From the IMG/VR virus record IMGVR_UViG_3300044846_001128, positions 1 to 22,009 of that record: a DNA stretch of 22,009 nucleotides. One strand, written 5' to 3'. Below are positions 2,746 through 21,199 of the stretch, in pieces. The stretch's first letter is position 1, and every line of letters starts with the position of its first letter. The stretch comes from a virus. A program made the translations under genes and the position numbers. Below the pieces are notes generated by a model that saw only the letters and a program-made list of their open reading frames with translations, made no database searches and was not told where the DNA came from.

Positions 2746-2985
2746 TTATAACTCAATTGCGTGTATTCTAGCTGTACGATCTGCGGCTATGATCTTTACA
2801 CGACTGTTAACTAAAGTAGCATAGGTCATTGTGTAGGTGTTTACTAACTTGCCCTTGTCGTTAAGCCAATGCAAATACACTTTGGAATTAGCAGGAGGAA
2901 TTAATACTGCGCCGTTTGGACCGGGTGTGTATTCTATTTCTGGATTGGCTTCAATCCATTCGTTTTTTAATGCTCGGTAGTTCAT
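2746..2985 (-). CDS. Small phage protein, 79 residues, unknown function
   Basis: Unrecognised. It begins [25 protein letters not shown] and continues with beta-like segments ([21 protein letters not shown]) and a basic C-terminal part. There are no Cys and no membrane segment. The start ATG overlaps the erpA stop as ATGA, so it is read on the same mRNA as iscU and erpA. No Shine-Dalgarno sequence is seen, which fits coupling. Whether it has anything to do with Fe-S assembly cannot be told from the sequence. Confidence 0.72.
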
Positions 2986-3308
2986 GCTACACTAAAGGAA
3001 CTTCCGCAGCCACAGCTTGTTTCGGCATTGGGATTTTTGATACTGAAACTGGATCCTTGTAGGTCCTCTTTGTAGTCAATGGTGGCACCTGTAAGATACT
3101 GCATACTCATTGCATCAACCAAAACTGTTGCCCCAGGGATGCCAAACTCAAAGTCATCTTCATTCTTTTGATCGTCAAAAGTAAATCCATATTGCATACC
3201 ACTGCATCCGCCACCCTGTACAAATGTTCTTAATTTGAGGTCGGGATTGTTTTCTTCAGCTAGGAGATCAGTGATTTTTAATTTTGCAGATTCAGTAAGT
3301 TCAAGCAT
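2982..3308 (-). CDS. erpA: A-type Fe-S carrier, ErpA-like
   Basis: A-type carrier that accepts an Fe-S cluster from a scaffold such as IscU and passes it to apo-enzymes. The 108 residues match bacterial ErpA throughout: [20 protein letters not shown], the region [19 protein letters not shown], and [15 protein letters not shown]. The three cluster ligands C35, C99 and C101 are all present. It resembles ErpA more than IscA because of the GGGCSG..YGFTFDD and TSCGCGSSF segments. It starts inside the last codons of iscU (8-base overlap), so the two are coupled. In hosts erpA is usually not fused into an isc operon with iscU alone, so this pairing looks assembled by the phage. Function is confident; the identity of its clients is inferred. 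Confidence 0.95.
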
Positions 3309-3684
3309 GATGTTTTTTCCTATAATCTTCTACAGCCGCTTTGATTGCGTCTTCAGCAAGAATTGAGCAGTGTATCTTAACCGGGGGTAATGCTAGTTCT
3401 TCGGCAATTTCGGAGTTTTTAATTGATCCTGCTTGGTCAAGGGTTTTTCCTTTGACCCACTCTGTAATGAGGCTCGAACTTGCAATAGCCGATCCGCAAC
3501 CGTACGTTTTAAATTTCGCATCTGTAATAATACCTGTATCATGATCCACCCTTATCTGTAATTTCATTACATCACCACAGGCCGGTGCACCTACCATACC
3601 TGTACCAATAGTATCGTCAACGTCAAACTTGCCCACGTTGCGGGGGTTTTCATAGTGATCAATTACTTTATCTGAATATGCCAT
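3301..3684 (-). CDS. iscU: Fe-S cluster assembly scaffold IscU
   Basis: Scaffold on which IscS-derived sulfur and iron form a [2Fe-2S] cluster. The 127 residues are a full-length Isc[61 protein letters not shown]. Ligands C36, D38, C63, H105 and C106 are all present. The HscA-recognition motif LPPVK (99-103) is intact, implying that host HscA/HscB can act on it. No IscS is encoded nearby, so sulfur must come from the host. The start ATG has AAGGA six bases upstream and a late-promoter-like TAAATA motif before that. The sequence looks beta/gammaproteobacterial, suggesting relatively recent capture (inference from memory of the family, not an alignment). Confidence 0.97.
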
Positions 3685-3701
3685 ATAGATTCCTTGCCCT
3701 G

Positions 3702-3718
3702 TATTTACCCTATAAATA
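3702..3718. promoter_or_regulatory. Back-to-back late-promoter-like motifs between iscU and iscA
   Basis: On the plus strand TATAAATA (3711-3718) matches the T4 late promoter consensus exactly. On the minus strand TAAATA (3702-3707) faces iscU. The two cores are arranged TATTTA-N5-TAAATA. T4 late transcripts start six bases past the final A. That predicts plus-strand initiation at 3724, the A of an iscA ATG, and minus-strand initiation at 3696, giving a 12-base leader that contains the iscU Shine-Dalgarno sequence. No gp55-like sigma factor is in the window, so function is inferred. Confidence 0.7.
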
Positions 3719-3723
3719 TGAGT

Positions 3724-4050
3724 ATGATAACTATTACAGCATTAGCAGTGGAAAAAGTCAAGCAGCAATTAGCCAAACGCGGCAAAGGGTTAGGTATCAA
3801 AGTAGGAGTCAAAACTACAGGGTGTAGCGGGCTAGCCTATACCTTAGAATACTTTGATAAACTAGATGACGAAGCACTGTATCATATAGTTGCAACTAAC
3901 GATATAGCAATTGTGATAGATAAAAAAAACGAACCCTATCTTAAGGGTATGACCATAGATTGGGTTCGCAATGGACTCAATGAAGGATTTGATTTTAGTA
4001 ATCCTAACGAGCGTGATCGGTGCGGTTGTGGCGAATCGTTCCGAGTTTAA
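3724..4050 (+). CDS. iscA: A-type Fe-S carrier, IscA-like
   Basis: Second A-type carrier, of the IscA rather than ErpA subtype: LAKRGKGLGIKVGVKTTGCSG, then GLNEGFDFSNPNERDRCGCG and ESFRV. Cluster or iron ligands C34, C100 and C102 are present in the 108-residue form. It is one of only three plus-strand genes found here and is divergent from iscU. Two ATGs are possible, 3718 and 3724. The later one, giving MITITALAVEKV, fits the short N-terminus of IscA and coincides exactly with the predicted late transcription start, which would make the mRNA leaderless. No Shine-Dalgarno sequence precedes either. The 3' end overlaps the convergent 74-residue gene by four bases. Confidence 0.94.
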   Translation: MITITALAVEKVKQQLAKRGKGLGIKVGVKTTGCSGLAYTLEYFDKLDDEALYHIVATNDIAIVIDKKNEPYLKGMTIDWVRNGLNEGFDFSNPNERDRCGCGESFRV

Positions 4051-8814: not shown

Positions 8815-9766
8815 TAGTTAATTCAATCTTTTCTACTGATCTAAAGGTAGACAAAACTTGTCTGTTCCACTTTAATTTACACTTGTGATTAGAAATTAAC
8901 CAATGATCTTGATTAGGATCAAAGTCTAAAAACTGCTGATCTATTATTAAACTGCCTAATAAAAAACGTCCTAGTGTTAGTTTATTAAGATCGTTAAATG
9001 GTATTTTGTTTTTTATCTCGTCAGGTAAATTTTTTATCTTGTTGTAGAAACTTTGTAGTTGTTCAGTTATATGCACTTCTGGACCAAAATTCATCCATGC
9101 TTCTGCGGCAAATCTTTGTTGTGCTTTTACCTGCTCTCGTTCAATAACTTCAAAGTCCCCATCCTTCAGTACATTCATCCAATCTTTACCTAGAGTATTA
9201 TAGCCCAGATAAAGGTTACCCCATTTAAAGTCTGATTCTAAAAATAACTTATCTTCTTCGTGTATCTGTCCGTGTAGTCCTAGCGGATGTAGATCATACA
9301 ATATACCAGCAGGATTTCCTAGACTACCGTTATCGTTAAGAGCGTCCTCGCACATATGAATGTACTCGTTTAGAGCAAAGAATAAGTTAATTAATTGCTG
9401 CCCAGGACCTGTAGCTTGATAGATAAGACTTTTGCCTGCGAAAGGCCTATCAAGGTATTGTTCAAACTTTTCAAATTCTTCGTGCAGATAATTTAATTTG
9501 TCTGTGTCAAATATGTCATACACAGGCAATTTAATGTGATATAACTTATTGATTGCTAACACTGTCTGTTGTAGAGATTGGAATATTTCTGGAACATCTG
9601 CTTTGGTGCGATTATTAAAAACAGAATGAATCTTACACTGAGGATTGACTAGATTCTTCTCAGTAAGTGTAATCCATTTGTCTGTAAGAAAAGTATCAAA
9701 TAATCTGTATTTGAGTATATGAATTTTTTGATCTTTGTCTTTAATATGGACTACAAGTTTAGACAT
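8807..9766 (-). CDS. 319-residue protein of unknown function in the radical SAM cluster
   Basis: Unrecognised. It starts MSKLVVHIKDKDQKIHILKY; the frame is open upstream to 9853, but ATG at 9764-9766 overlaps the radical SAM stop by eight bases, the usual spacing in this operon. The middle, QATGPGQQLINLFFALNEYI, is followed by a His-rich segment, YDLHPLGLHGQIHEEDKLFL, and WGNLYLGYNTLGKDWMNVL. The His/Glu cluster (H-P-L-G-L-H-G-Q-I-H-E-E) could bind a metal. No membrane segment. Its fixed place directly after three radical SAM genes and before an oxygenase suggests a partner or substrate-handling role, which is inference. Confidence 0.68.
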   Translation of the reverse strand: MSKLVVHIKDKDQKIHILKYRLFDTFLTDKWITLTEKNLVNPQCKIHSVFNNRTKADVPEIFQSLQQTVLAINKLYHIKLPVYDIFDTDKLNYLHEEFEKFEQYLDRPFAGKSLIYQATGPGQQLINLFFALNEYIHMCEDALNDNGSLGNPAGILYDLHPLGLHGQIHEEDKLFLESDFKWGNLYLGYNTLGKDWMNVLKDGDFEVIEREQVKAQQRFAAEAWMNFGPEVHITEQLQSFYNKIKNLPDEIKNKIPFNDLNKLTLGRFLLGSLIIDQQFLDFDPNQDHWLISNHKCKLKWNRQVLSTFRSVEKIELTNV

Positions 9767-10790
9767 TCTTAATCCAGTTAATTTCTTCTTCAGAATATTT
9801 GTAAAGATAATATGAATGGTTGACTGCTTGATGTACACTGTCAACTGATACAATAATATTATTAAATTTTTCTTTACATATTTTGTAAAATTCTTGTGCT
9901 GTTTCTAAATTGCCAGGGTCACACATTATTCTAACACTGACCCAATTAGGGTCTCCAATACCGGGAGCACTAAGATTCTTTCTTCTAACATCAGTTGCTG
10001 CCTGTATACTTTTAATAAACTTATCTGTTCCGTATTGTTTAACATAATTCAAATGAATACTAAAACAGATATCGCTATATTCTGCAAGTTCTCTATAGTA
10101 GTTTTCATTGTGACTTCCATTAGTTGTAGTCATTACTAGGTGTCCGTCTTTCTTAAGACGTTTAACAAACGGAAGATAGTCTTTATAGACAGTTGGTTCT
10201 CCGCCAGTAAAACTAAACTTAGTTTTCTCTCCGTTGATCCAAGGTAAAAGATTATTGTAAGCAGTTTCTAATTGAACATAGGTTTTATGTTCTTCAAAGT
10301 TATTATGTACATTAGAAGGGCAATACCAACAATCAAAGTTGCAGCGTCTACCTATGTCCCATGATACAAATTTGAAAAGATTATTGGTATTTGAATACAC
10401 TACTACTGGATCAACTTTGGAGTGTTTAATATTTAATTTTTTATTGTTAACAACCGAATTAGGAAAATGTTCTTCAATTAGCTCTATAGTTTTTGCTTTA
10501 GGTACTGCCATGTCTGCACCACATGAGCACAAATTGCGGGGGCATTGAATCCAATTCTTTTCTAAAGGAAATTGGTCAGTGTATATATTACCTAGTCGTC
10601 CTCCTACCTTGCAAACTCCTTTAAATATGTCTCCATCAAAGAAAATATATAGATATCTAATACCTATACCACAATACCAATCTTTCCATTTGTTTAGTTC
10701 TGAGGAATGAACAAATTCAACGCTGTGAGTTGAATAGTTTAGATCGTTGTCAACGAAAAAGAGATTGTCATTATCCAGAGGTTCTAACAT
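9759..10790 (-). CDS. Radical SAM protein with N-terminal SPASM-like Cys cluster
   Basis: Radical SAM enzyme: C150-x3-C154-x2-C157 (RRCNFDCWYC) binds the [4Fe-4S] cluster, TGGEP (195-199) is the SAM motif, and VMTTTNG plus ICFSIHLNY continue the partial TIM barrel. Residues 40-95 hold further cysteines (C40, C60, C83, C88, C90; CPRNLCSCGAD) that look like an auxiliary SPASM/twitch cluster placed before, rather than after, the barrel. Such auxiliary clusters are typical of enzymes that modify peptides or sugars. It shares little with the next two radical SAM proteins outside the motifs. It starts 20 bases inside the upstream gene. The reaction is unknown; peptide or nucleotide-sugar modification are the main options. 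Confidence 0.88.
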   Translation of the reverse strand: MLEPLDNDNLFFVDNDLNYSTHSVEFVHSSELNKWKDWYCGIGIRYLYIFFDGDIFKGVCKVGGRLGNIYTDQFPLEKNWIQCPRNLCSCGADMAVPKAKTIELIEEHFPNSVVNNKKLNIKHSKVDPVVVYSNTNNLFKFVSWDIGRRCNFDCWYCPSNVHNNFEEHKTYVQLETAYNNLLPWINGEKTKFSFTGGEPTVYKDYLPFVKRLKKDGHLVMTTTNGSHNENYYRELAEYSDICFSIHLNYVKQYGTDKFIKSIQAATDVRRKNLSAPGIGDPNWVSVRIMCDPGNLETAQEFYKICKEKFNNIIVSVDSVHQAVNHSYYLYKYSEEEINWIKNV

Positions 10791-12030
10791 TTATAATATC
10801 TTTAAAGAACGAATTATCTGTGCCGCGTAATTGATCTAGTTTATCAATATATTCAATTGTTTGATCAAATATATTGCTCCAATCTTCACTGTTCATAAAA
10901 TCAATAATTTTTAACATGCGTTGAATACTAGGATTATCTGTATTATCTCTTGCAAATTTATAAAGTTTTTCTGATACTTTATTTTTAATTTCTTTAGGTA
11001 ATGCTTTAACGCAGAGATATTTTGGATAGTGAAGGATACCAGGATGAAATGTCCCATCTAAATTAACTCGACTAATTTTTTTAAAGTTCTGTACTGCTAA
11101 CCAATTAACTAGTTCTGGTAAGAAGAATATGTTTAATATCTGTACTGTACAAAGAATTTTTACTTCTATCATGGAAGGAGTATTATCGTATAGTTCTAGA
11201 TTTTTTCTTATAGTTTCCCAATCTGAAGGATAGCGTATATAGTCGTTTACTTCTTTGGCACCATCAATGCTAATCATAATATCAACAAATTTAAATTTAG
11301 TCCACAGTTCAACAACTTCTTTATCATAGATACTGCCGTTGGTATGATAACGAAGTTCGATATGTGTTGATTCACCCGTTGCAACTAATTTTTCTAATAT
11401 CTCTTTGTGTTCTTTAATATACAAAGGTTCACCACCACCAAATATTATATGACGGATATCTTTAGCAGACTCATAAAAATCTTTTAGAAATGTTTCATTC
11501 TTATACCATTCAAAGTTATTGGTTGAATAGTTTTCAATTTTGTGTTTCCAATCCCATTTAGCGTCTGTTTTCAATTCTTCTTTTAAAATAGTAGCATGTT
11601 TGACCCATTTACTACTATCAATTGGCCTGCACATAACACACTGTAGATTGCAAGTGTTACCTAATCTTAAATCTAAAGTGATCCATTTACTTGCTAGACT
11701 GCCGTCACTTTTAGTTTCATTTATTAAATCAGTTATATAATCATCGCCAAGTTTATTTTTCCAAATATGATTTTCAATCTGTCTATGGCTATACATTCCT
11801 ATTTCTTCTAACTTATAACAGGCGCCGCACTCTTTTACCTTTGCTCCGACCATCATTAATCTTCTAGCCTGTCGAAAATGACTGCTGTTCCATATTTCTT
11901 CCGGGCTCATTGTGTTAAAATTAAGTTCTTTTCGAGAATTTGCTACACAGCAAAGCAAGGCAGAACCGTCAGTGTATGATGCCATATGAGTCCACGGCAA
12001 TATGCAAAATGTTTTTGTTCTTTCAGTCAT
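10771..12030 (-). CDS. Radical SAM protein with N-terminal twitch domain
   Basis: Resembles the twitch-domain-containing radical SAM family. The N-terminal domain has F-C9-I-L-P-W, C27/C28, IWNSSHFRQARRLM and C68-G-A-C71, the pattern for an auxiliary Fe-S cluster. The radical SAM motif is C127-x3-C131-x2-C134 (NTCNLQCVMC), with GGGEP (198-202) for SAM, LRYHTNGS and IMISIDGA. The 419 residues end in a ~100-residue helical tail. It therefore needs about two clusters per molecule. It overlaps the neighbouring paralogue by eight bases. The substrate is unknown; the cluster context (glycosyltransferases, oxygenases) suggests sugar or peptide modification. Composition is markedly AT-rich. Confidence 0.9.
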   Translation of the reverse strand: MTERTKTFCILPWTHMASYTDGSALLCCVANSRKELNFNTMSPEEIWNSSHFRQARRLMMVGAKVKECGACYKLEEIGMYSHRQIENHIWKNKLGDDYITDLINETKSDGSLASKWITLDLRLGNTCNLQCVMCRPIDSSKWVKHATILKEELKTDAKWDWKHKIENYSTNNFEWYKNETFLKDFYESAKDIRHIIFGGGEPLYIKEHKEILEKLVATGESTHIELRYHTNGSIYDKEVVELWTKFKFVDIMISIDGAKEVNDYIRYPSDWETIRKNLELYDNTPSMIEVKILCTVQILNIFFLPELVNWLAVQNFKKISRVNLDGTFHPGILHYPKYLCVKALPKEIKNKVSEKLYKFARDNTDNPSIQRMLKIIDFMNSEDWSNIFDQTIEYIDKLDQLRGTDNSFFKDIINVRTSG

Positions 12031-13342
12031 TTAATAATTTTGCTAACTTAGGATTTACTAATTCTAGATTTTGATTTCTTTCTTTATCTAATATTTTAGT
12101 ATAAGATCGTAGACGATCAATTTGCTCTTTCCAATCTTTTGATCTTCCGTTGTTAGTCAGTAGTCCGATTATCCCATCAATACTATTGACGGTTAGTTCG
12201 GGAGATCGTTTGTTTATTTTAGTATTTTTGTATTCAATCAACAAATCGGCGGCTTGTTTCATCATATCTTCAGGTAGAATATCTACTTTTAAAAATTCAG
12301 GATGTATGTTAATTAAAAAATCAACAAAGATATGTTTTTTATATTTTTGTTGTATATCGTCTACCCAATTAAGTATATTAACTAAATCAAATACATTGTA
12401 AGTCTGTACTGTAGGAGTAATACCAAGATGCACGTTTGACATCTGTGCCAGTTTCTCAATGTTTGCACTAATTTGCAGCCATTTACTAGGAGCACGAATA
12501 TAATCATTCATTTCTCCTATGCCGTCAATACTGGCATTTATGTAGACATTGTCAAATTGTTGAATTAGAGCAGTGAATTTTTTGTTAACATTGGTGCAAT
12601 TTGTATTAAAGAATAACACAATATCTTTTCTACCTTGTTTGATACATTCTTCCATGAACTTAAAGTTGTTTTCAATTAAAGTAGGTTCTCCGCCTGTCAT
12701 ATAGACTTTGTGTAGTTTGGGAATTAATTCAATGATCTGATCCCATAAAATATCATCTTCAAAAAATTGTTGTACATCTAGAAATTGTTTATTGAAATGA
12801 CCAAAAGATTTTTCCCATACTAATTTGTATTCTTTGTCTCGGGTTTCTAAATCAAGATGTTCTTTAGCGATTTGACTACTATTCCACGGACTGCACATTC
12901 TACATTTTAAGTTGCATAGATTACCTAATCTTAAGTCAAGGTAAGCAATACTATAATCAAGCTCGCCGTTCTTAAGTATTGCCTTATCCATTAATTTATA
13001 AAGATGGTCTTTACCTAGTTTGCCTGCCCATTCATCATTGGATTGTTGCCTGTTGCTTTTTCTTCCGCTGTCTTCTTGTAAGTAACAGACTTCACAACCA
13101 GAAACTTTATTGCCAGAGATCATGTCAATTCTAATTTGTTTTAATCTGCTGCTATTCCACAAGAGTTTAAAGTCGTCTCGTACTGTGGCTATCGACCCGT
13201 CTTCGTTATGCAGAACATTAGTGCCTTTCTTCATCATACAACAAGGTTTTACAGTTGCATCCGGATTGACCATTAAGCCAACAAAAGGTATGGCACAAAA
13301 TGTTGGCATTATTTCTGTAATTGCCTGATCAAATGTTTGCAT
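12023..13342 (-). CDS. Radical SAM protein with N-terminal twitch domain (paralogue)
   Basis: Same architecture as the enzyme at 10771-12030: twitch cysteines F-C16-A-I-P-F, C34/C35, LLWNSSRLKQIRIDM, C83-x2-C86; radical SAM cysteines C143-x3-C147-x2-C150 (NLCNLKCRMC); TGGEP (216-220); LFFNTNCT and INASIDGIG; then a helical tail of about 130 residues. The 439-residue start at 13340-13342 has GGAG ten bases upstream, one of few clear ribosome binding sites in the island. Tandem paralogues suggest two successive or two substrate-specific steps. AT-rich like its neighbour (lines around 12061 are about one-quarter G+C). Confidence 0.9.
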   Translation of the reverse strand: MQTFDQAITEIMPTFCAIPFVGLMVNPDATVKPCCMMKKGTNVLHNEDGSIATVRDDFKLLWNSSRLKQIRIDMISGNKVSGCEVCYLQEDSGRKSNRQQSNDEWAGKLGKDHLYKLMDKAILKNGELDYSIAYLDLRLGNLCNLKCRMCSPWNSSQIAKEHLDLETRDKEYKLVWEKSFGHFNKQFLDVQQFFEDDILWDQIIELIPKLHKVYMTGGEPTLIENNFKFMEECIKQGRKDIVLFFNTNCTNVNKKFTALIQQFDNVYINASIDGIGEMNDYIRAPSKWLQISANIEKLAQMSNVHLGITPTVQTYNVFDLVNILNWVDDIQQKYKKHIFVDFLINIHPEFLKVDILPEDMMKQAADLLIEYKNTKINKRSPELTVNSIDGIIGLLTNNGRSKDWKEQIDRLRSYTKILDKERNQNLELVNPKLAKLLND

Positions 13343-20026: not shown

Positions 20027-20215
20027 TTAGTAAGTGTGGGGATATAAACGTCCACCAAAACTACTGCTCAAAGCAACAGTACTGCCTCCAAGTCCGTAGT
20101 AGGCACCACAGTTTGCTCTCAGCTGAGCTTGGGATCCTAGGCCATTATTACTAATAGCACGCCAGGTTCTACCTAGCTCTCTGTTGCTACCTGTTGCTGA
20201 GAAAAAACCTGCCAT
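20027..20215 (-). CDS. Small Gly/Ser-rich late protein, 62 residues
   Basis: Unrecognised. MAGFFSATGSNRELGRTWRA, then a Gly/Ser/Asn/Tyr-rich region with AYYGLGGSTVALSSSFGGRL and one Cys (C36). It resembles small virion accessory proteins by composition. The ATG at 20213-20215 has CGGAG seven bases upstream, and a minus-strand late-promoter-like motif (GATAAATA) gives an 18-base leader. A small decoration or tail protein is the most plausible role (inference). Confidence 0.68.
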   Translation of the reverse strand: MAGFFSATGSNRELGRTWRAISNNGLGSQAQLRANCGAYYGLGGSTVALSSSFGGRLYPHTY

Positions 20216-20236
20216 TTGTTACTCCGTTATCTAACG

Positions 20237-20257
20237 AATATTTATCTAATAAATATT
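20237..20257. promoter_or_regulatory. Back-to-back late-promoter-like motifs in a 9-base inverted repeat
   Basis: AATATTTAT (20237-20245), CTA, ATAAATATT (20249-20257) form a perfect inverted repeat that carries a TAAATA core on each strand (20239-20244 minus, 20250-20255 plus). The cores have the same TATTTA-N5-TAAATA spacing as at 3702-3718. Predicted plus start is 20261, exactly the A of an ATG; predicted minus start is 20233. Confidence 0.72.
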
Positions 20258-20260
20258 TGC

Positions 20261-20413
20261 ATGACCAAGAATCAATTACTACAACGACTGCGAGAGGATC
20301 TAGAAGAATTGGATCACGCTATGATGCATGAAGAATCTGAAGAATTGCAAATAGCACGTATGAATTTGCAGGGTCGTATTCAAGAGCTTGAACTTGAACT
20401 GTTAGAAAATTGA
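20261..20413 (+). CDS. Small coiled-coil protein, 50 residues
   Basis: Plus-strand gene of 50 residues (MTKNQLLQRLREDLEELDHA, ending IQELELELLEN) with heptad-like Leu spacing through nearly its whole length: a short coiled coil, likely a dimer. No Cys. There is no Shine-Dalgarno sequence; the ATG coincides with the predicted late transcription start, so the message would be leaderless. The frame is open upstream to 20216 but those codons precede the predicted start. Divergent from the 62-residue Gly/Ser-rich gene. Function unknown; oligomer-forming partner is a guess. Confidence 0.65.
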   Translation: MTKNQLLQRLREDLEELDHAMMHEESEELQIARMNLQGRIQELELELLEN

Positions 20414-20414
20414 C

Positions 20415-20633
20415 ATGATACCTCGTGATCGCTCAGACGGACAGCATTTTCTAGCACTGTATACGTTCAGCGATCAACCCTATGAGCCCAGTCTGCATTG
20501 GAATACCAATCGAGGGTGGGTTCAAGACCCGTTACATGTCGCACCCAAAAAGCACTACGAAAATGATCACAGGCCTAAGTCTCGGCCATTCATTCTGGAT
20601 ACTACGTTGACTTCTCCGGTGATGATCTCGTAG
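20415..20633 (+). CDS. Small plus-strand protein, 72 residues, unknown function
   Basis: Starts one base after the preceding stop (TGACATG), so it could be read by reinitiation. It begins MIPRDRSDGQHFLALYTFSD and continues with PYEPSLHWNTNRGWVQ, which looks like genuine protein sequence. The last 22 codons overlap, convergently, the 3' end of the HAD gene at 20567-21199, and that part is less protein-like. No domain recognised. It is kept because it fills an otherwise empty 150 bases in a very compact genome, but it could be spurious. Confidence 0.5.
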   Translation: MIPRDRSDGQHFLALYTFSDQPYEPSLHWNTNRGWVQDPLHVAPKKHYENDHRPKSRPFILDTTLTSPVMIS

Positions 20634-21199
20634 ATTGCCCGCCAGTTTTTAACCTTGCGGATATAAGGGGTAGGGGTATTCATATTATGCCCGTGTTCCA
20701 TAATTAGGCTGTTTAGGCCCAGGGCTCGCCCACATTCGGCGTTTTCAACCTTGTCTTCAATCCAGTATAGCCCAGATCCCCTGTAGGGTTCCAGTGCATC
20801 ATCCTTGTCCGACCCTGTGGGTAGACAGACTAGTTTAGTAAAAGTGTTTTTACCAAACAGTTTCTGTAGATTCATCTCACGTAGGCGTTGGGCATTGCGA
20901 TCAGTGCTGAGGCTAGTGATACAGTGGAACTCGTATCCATGCTCCTCATGTAGGCGTTTAACATAGTACACGCTGTCTCGCAATGGGGGTAGAAACCCTA
21001 TAGCGGCAGATTCGTTAAACAAGCATGTAAATTTTTTAGCATCTGACTCATTTAAATTTTCAAACTGATCATTGATTTTATAGTAGTCTTTTGCGTTTGG
21101 TCGTTGCATATAACCACGTTCCTGCATCCAAATATTGAATGCCCACTCCCAGTCTAGTAGAACACCGTCTGCGTCTGTGAGTATAATTTTATCTGTCAT
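20567..21199 (-). CDS. HAD-superfamily phosphatase-like protein (5'-nucleotidase type)
   Basis: 210 residues with HAD motifs: IILTDADGVLLDW (nucleophile D9, acid/base D11), FHCITSLS as motif II, and YWIEDKVENAECGRAL, where D149 fits motif IV. The length and DxDGV opening suit small phosphatases such as the 5'(3')-deoxyribonucleotidases that phages carry, but the substrate is not certain. The start ATG has AAGGAAG seven bases upstream. Its end overlaps convergently with the plus-strand 72-residue ORF by 67 bases. A role in nucleotide metabolism during infection is inferred. Confidence 0.8.
   Translation of the reverse strand: MTDKIILTDADGVLLDWEWAFNIWMQERGYMQRPNAKDYYKINDQFENLNESDAKKFTCLFNESAAIGFLPPLRDSVYYVKRLHEEHGYEFHCITSLSTDRNAQRLREMNLQKLFGKNTFTKLVCLPTGSDKDDALEPYRGSGLYWIEDKVENAECGRALGLNSLIMEHGHNMNTPTPYIRKVKNWRAIYEIITGEVNVVSRMNGRDLGL

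Follow-up and report, generated by a model that had tools for sequence, protein, structure and literature searches.

Introduction

Compact divergent late promoters are already known in kind from phages of the T4 group. T4 carries TATTTATCATATTTATAAATA between genes 26 and 51, and at the 26|51 junctions of T4, RB69 and RB49 divergent late genes flank two inverted TAAATA boxes contained within about 12-21 bp, the gap between the boxes being 0 or 9 bp in T4 and 8 bp in RB49. Overlapping T4 promoters that drive divergent transcription of the baseplate cluster were reportedly described by Scarlato and colleagues in Virology in 1989. Compact divergent pairs also occur at the 4|48 junctions of KVP40 and Aeh1 and in HTVC008M. 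A search by phrase for divergent or bidirectional late promoters gave no hit in the literature collection that it covered.

The T4 late promoter consists of a -10-type box only and needs no -35 element; gp55 recognises the box, while gp33 and the sliding clamp gp45 activate transcription (PMC2988020). The clamp is positioned upstream of the polymerase; the strand on which it is loaded sets the way it faces, and this in turn decides which promoters are served (PMC2988020). Divergent transcription from a short site is also known from sigma-70 bidirectional promoters, where one near-symmetric site yields divergent RNAs from mutually exclusive polymerases; in those promoters the two directions share one symmetric -10, and the starts fall within it or flank it at a distance from each other of 18, 10 or 23 bp, most often 18 (PMC12825309).

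Here we analyse a paired late-promoter-like element at 20.2 kb of an uncultured viral sequence. The window, that is, the whole stretch of DNA analysed, is a complete IMG/VR contig of 22,009 bases and represents a 22-kb fragment. A near-identity search of the window against named phages gave no match.

A rare paired motif at two divergent junctions

The window contains exactly two matches to TATTTA-N5-TAAATA, TATTTATCTAATAAATA at 20239-20255 and TATTTACCCTATAAATA at 3702-3718, both lying between divergent genes and both with hexamer starts 11 bp apart. Dinucleotide shuffling gave an expectation of 0.01 matches, and none of 100 shuffles produced two. Similarly, when the window's 20 TAAATA hexamers were placed randomly, two pairs with k=5 (k being the length in bases of the gap that separates the hexamers) arose in 0 of 20,000 trials. 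On its own, TAAATA shows no enrichment, the window holding 20 copies against 34 expected. At 20.2 kb both hexamers are enclosed in a perfect, unstranded 9-bp inverted repeat with a 3-nt spacer (20237-20257; arms AATATTTAT at 20237-20245 and ATAAATATT at 20249-20257). The extended arms are absent from the 3702 copy, and what the two copies share is limited to the hexamers and the spacing from these to the start codons. The shared 11-base spacing, the perfect inverted repeat and the position at divergent starts had all been part of the original prediction of a bidirectional late-promoter-like element, and each held up, the spacing also against the shuffled background within the window.

On the minus strand, the hexamer at 20239..20244 (TAAATA on that strand) precedes p62, which encodes a 62-aa protein (20027..20215) behind a leader of about 18 nt with a GGAG Shine-Dalgarno-type sequence; on the plus strand, the TAAATA at 20250..20255 precedes p50, which encodes a 50-aa protein (20261..20413). 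The corresponding hexamers of the other copy, at 3702..3707 (minus strand) and 3713..3718 (plus strand), stand before genes for an IscU/NifU-like scaffold protein (3301..3684, minus strand; NifU_N, PF01592, 1.2e-54; leader AAGGAA) and for a second IscA, which is IscA/HesB-like (3724..4050, plus strand; PF01521, 2.7e-17). Searches of PHROG and Pfam gave no match above the cut-off for p62, p50 or p72, and p62 had no match among named phages. p50 shows a coding signal, with 7 synonymous-only against 2 nonsynonymous codon changes between the window and its relative L084, and homologous open frames are found in all 7 contigs that have the junction.

The window holds, at 2982-4050, IscU and two IscA-like paralogues within one phage; among relatives, the IscU neighbourhoods are strongly rearranged. 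A 72-aa plus-strand ORF (20415-20633; 75% identity in L084) overlaps by 67 bases the 3' end of a minus-strand gene with a phrog_420 match (20567-21199). Judged by eye only, three ORFs at 9759-13342 with CxxxCxxC-type motifs (CNFDCWYC, CNLQCVMC and CNLKCRMC) appear radical SAM-like and adjoin several glycosyltransferase-like ORFs.

Predicted starts and a probable leaderless side

A T4-type late promoter is recognised by a TATAAATA-like box at -13 to -6 with a TAAATA core, in which position -13 is variable among T4 relatives. The core is present on both strands at both elements, each box sits just upstream of a same-strand gene, and the TATAAATA octamer is complete at 3711-3718. At position -13, the plus side at 20.2 kb has A, whereas the minus sides of the two elements have G instead of T or A. 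In a 4-sequence alignment, the -35-equivalent region falls within leader or coding sequence that has constraints of its own.

In T4 the late octamer occupies -13 to -6 relative to the start of transcription (PMC1524935). By this rule the ATG at 20261, which lies 5 nt beyond TAAATA, would be +1, and the same offset from 3713-3718 puts the predicted start on the A of the ATG at 3724; a further ATG, at 3718, shares bases with the hexamer and would fall upstream of that start. The minus-strand start at 20.2 kb is predicted near 20233. On their plus sides both elements thus read TAAATA, five bases, ATG, and since the predicted start is the A of this ATG, the mRNAs of p50 and of the second IscA are predicted to carry no leader; the minus side of each has a Shine-Dalgarno-type leader.

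Across 82 relatives and the window, an ATG-started ORF began no more than 60 bases downstream of TAAATA in 432 of 760 cases. For TATTTA, AATATA, TATAAA and ATAATA the same test gave 190-230 of 760-915, so that TAAATA precedes ORFs about twice as often as similar hexamers, in counts that take in many homologous loci and hence non-independent cases. ATAAAT was upstream of ORFs in 325 of 836 cases in this set, but it overlaps the TAAATA motif. The distance from TAAATA to the ATG (N, the bases between them) has two peaks in the same sequences, at N4-5 and at about N17-28. Counted over whole genomes, N4-5 cases number 13 in HTVC008M (null mean 2.2, null maximum 6), 9 in the relative G035 (null mean 2.9, maximum 5) and 3 in T4 (null mean 2.6), which supports the prediction of leaderless late starts in HTVC008M and G035, and not in T4.

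TAAATA-N5-ATG recurs ahead of many different genes in HTVC008M (L223-L230), in G035 (L231-L238) and in freshwater relatives, a recurrence not seen in T4. It predicts that late mRNAs without leaders are general in HTVC008M, G035 and the freshwater relatives.

Conservation of the junctions in diverged relatives

The p62|p50 junction is present in 7 contigs, namely the window, L340/L083, L341, L343/L084, L339 (G011), L342 (G047) and L344 (G048), which form 4 clearly diverged lineages; L083 matches the window exactly across the junction, and L341 and L084 differ little from these two. All 7 contigs have k=5 and N=5, despite spacer sequences that vary (TTAGA, TTGGA, TAGGC or TTTGG) and p62 leaders of 15, 19, 22 or 23 nt. 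Between the window and G011, where protein identity is 47% for p50 and 61% for p62, 16 of the 17 core bases are kept and the single change falls in the spacer. The inverted repeat at 20237..20257 is unchanged in L084. The element that the original prediction expected in related phages is therefore found there, and its further claim, that the plus-strand transcript begins at the ATG at 20261, gains in silico support from the constant five-base distance, as a predicted start.

The IscA element recurs as well. It has k=5 with two different partner genes in L345-L347 and k=4 with another partner in L351, and a separate IscU|IscA junction in L179 has k=5.

Upstream of IscU in nine loci (L024, L032, L033, L039, L040, L041, L042, L069 and L071), TTGACA- and TATAAT-like boxes stand at about sigma-70 spacing with TAAATA between them, an arrangement whose motifs suggest an early and a late promoter in one.

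Most of the window is syntenic with G047 (140 kb), its closest long relative, which carries genes like rIIA and rIIB and has a block of proteins in common with HTVC008M at 28-48% identity. Searches detected a gp55-like sigma in HTVC008M and in the relatives G043, G035 and G053, and a sliding clamp in G043 and HTVC008M. Family searches, with a local profile search added for G047, found no gp55- or gp45-like genes in the window, G047 or G048, of which G047 and G048 may be fragments. The phage of the window presumably depends on a gp55-like factor.

Orientation and spacing of paired boxes

In the 82 relatives plus the window, divergent TAAATA pairs peak at k=4 (9 cases), k=5 (10), k=18 (5) and k=24-25 (22), and convergent and tandem pairs are near zero. 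Spacings of 0-12, 17-18 and 24-25 bp all occur at divergent late starts.

A wider divergent pair with a spacer of 24 precedes a 95-aa gene in L104, L105, L111 and L127 and in some ten further IMG/VR loci; all of these have a conserved TTATAATCTTAATG core that contains a perfect TATAAT.

In 1.43 Mb of relatives, sequence that was not chosen for the motif, we found 25 compact divergent pairs (k 0-9). Simple gene calling placed 20 of them at divergent junctions, which make up only 7% (136/1,849) of the junctions in this sequence; the other five are L068 and four copies of a single junction family overlooked by the gene caller. In a slightly larger set, 29 of 30 compact pairs had an ORF start on both sides. 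Compact pairs are thus not as frequent inside genes as at divergent starts, in agreement with the original prediction.

Clustering of the flanking genes resolved the divergent pairs with ORFs on both sides into 53 gene-family pairs, a set that includes loci fetched by motif pattern and is therefore biased in its mix of leadered and leaderless sides. Counted once per family pair and spacing, k was 0-9 in 40, 10-19 in 20, 20-29 in 11 and larger in 2, with k=5 the commonest single spacing. We also scanned IMG/VR with a pattern that joined a Shine-Dalgarno sequence to TATTTA-N0-30-TAAATA-N5-ATG. ORFs of at least 45 codons flanked both sides in 94 among the 120 matches listed, a count that gives no measure of how frequent the leadered/leaderless asymmetry is, since the pattern itself required one side of each kind. 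With the control motif TAATTT/AAATTA in its place, the same pattern occurred at 73 loci in the whole IMG/VR collection, with such ORFs on both sides in 4 of the 73. The matches in P-SSM2 and P-SSM4 that were inspected were tandem or inside genes; we set these aside as chance-like.

Comparison with described divergent promoters

Like the T4 26|51 type, the window element has inverted late boxes within about 12 bp between divergent genes, but its boxes are 5 bp apart and one of its sides is predicted to be leaderless, whereas both genes at T4 26|51 have Shine-Dalgarno leaders. At the DNA-end-protector|head-closure junction of HTVC008M, inverted TATTTA/TAAATA boxes likewise lie between divergent late genes and TAAATA-N5-ATG is present; there, however, the arrangement is TATTTA-N4-TAAATA and both sides are predicted leaderless, in contrast to the 5-bp spacer and single leaderless side here. 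Compared with sigma-70 bidirectional promoters, which share one -10, the element has two separate boxes with predicted starts at 20233 and 20261, 28 bp apart; it would act like such a promoter but is not one. Finding the element twice in one window is no evidence of novelty, since compact divergent late promoters exist in T4-group phages. What sets the window element apart is that its 5-bp spacing is fixed at p62|p50 and that one side is predicted leaderless; of these two, the leaderless side is the unusual part.

A model for the element and its alternatives

The two exact matches against 0.01 expected, together with the orientation, spacing and junction placement of such pairs and their conservation in diverged relatives, indicate that the element is very probably a compact bidirectional late promoter, formed by two T4-type, -10-type TAAATA boxes set back to back 11 bp apart. 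By analogy with T4, late RNA polymerase would bind it with a gp55-like sigma and gp33- and gp45-like partners. In one binding orientation, the polymerase would start near 20233 and transcribe the 62-aa gene with its leader; in the opposite one, it would start at 20261, and the AUG of the 50-aa gene would then open the mRNA. Two polymerases should not fit on boxes 11 bp apart at the same time, because their footprints must overlap, and each binding event would then serve one side only. Two observations speak against the promoter reading: the G at position -13 on both minus sides, and the negative searches for gp55- and gp45-like genes in the window, G047 and G048.

Whether the two promoters are coupled at all is a separate matter. 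Two ordinary, uncoupled late promoters packed together by genome compaction, with an incidental 5-bp gap, would leave the promoter reading as it is and differ on coupling only. We regard this as a serious possibility, though somewhat short of an even chance: the range of spacings used at divergent late starts, including those of T4 itself, speaks for it, whereas the gap of exactly 5 in four diverged lineages, despite the changes in leader length and spacer sequence, does not, and neither does the retention of 5 with two different partners at the IscA junction, the value of 4 in L351 notwithstanding. The varied spacing elsewhere thus favours space-saving, and the invariant spacing at p62|p50 favours some coupling. 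The stronger form of coupling, a regulated switch with the transcribed side chosen by clamp orientation or fork direction, seems unlikely. It has precedents in T4, where clamp orientation fixes the late promoters open to activation and the upstream end of the complex is occupied by gp45 (PMC2988020), and in the mutual exclusion of opposing polymerases on sigma-70 bidirectional promoters (PMC12825309). However, there is no sign that p62 and p50 are needed at different times, a replicating genome should provide clamps in both orientations, and the spacing is not fixed elsewhere. The designed two-way switch of the original prediction is not borne out. Its spacing of one helical turn fared better in part, being invariant at p62|p50 and the commonest across gene-family pairs, but distances of 0-12 bp occur elsewhere, T4 included. 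Helical phasing as a general rule was rejected, as the modes of the spacing, near 5, 9, 17-18 and 24, do not follow one another at intervals of 10-11 bp.

The perfect 9-bp inverted repeat could also suggest that a DNA-binding protein uses the site as a palindromic operator, or that the RNA folds into a hairpin, in place of a promoter. This is very improbable given that the 3702 copy lacks the extended arms and retains the hexamers and their start-codon distance; the hairpin was rejected outright, since both predicted starts lie outside the repeat and the late mRNAs would not contain it. A chance product of AT-rich sequence, to which the unremarkable frequency of TAAATA alone might point, is next to negligible, because the paired form is far above expectation and conserved, and the tests of orientation, spacing and conservation contradict it.

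Implications

A wider view can be formulated, in which bidirectional late promoters of fixed 11-bp spacing, with one leadered and one leaderless side, would form a class in T4-superfamily phages; clamp orientation would set the direction of transcription, mRNA type would set translation, and a built-in ratio of two late products would result. We put this forward as a long shot. Compact divergent late promoters themselves are widespread, with divergent pairs at 53 gene-family pairs in the sequences examined, and offer a simple handle for late genes and gene starts in uncultured phages. The distance to the ATG, invariant at p62|p50, predicts leaderless late mRNAs, a form that T4 apparently does not use, and promoters set back to back, if clamp-dependent, would make a clean substrate for asking whether clamp orientation sets the direction of late transcription.
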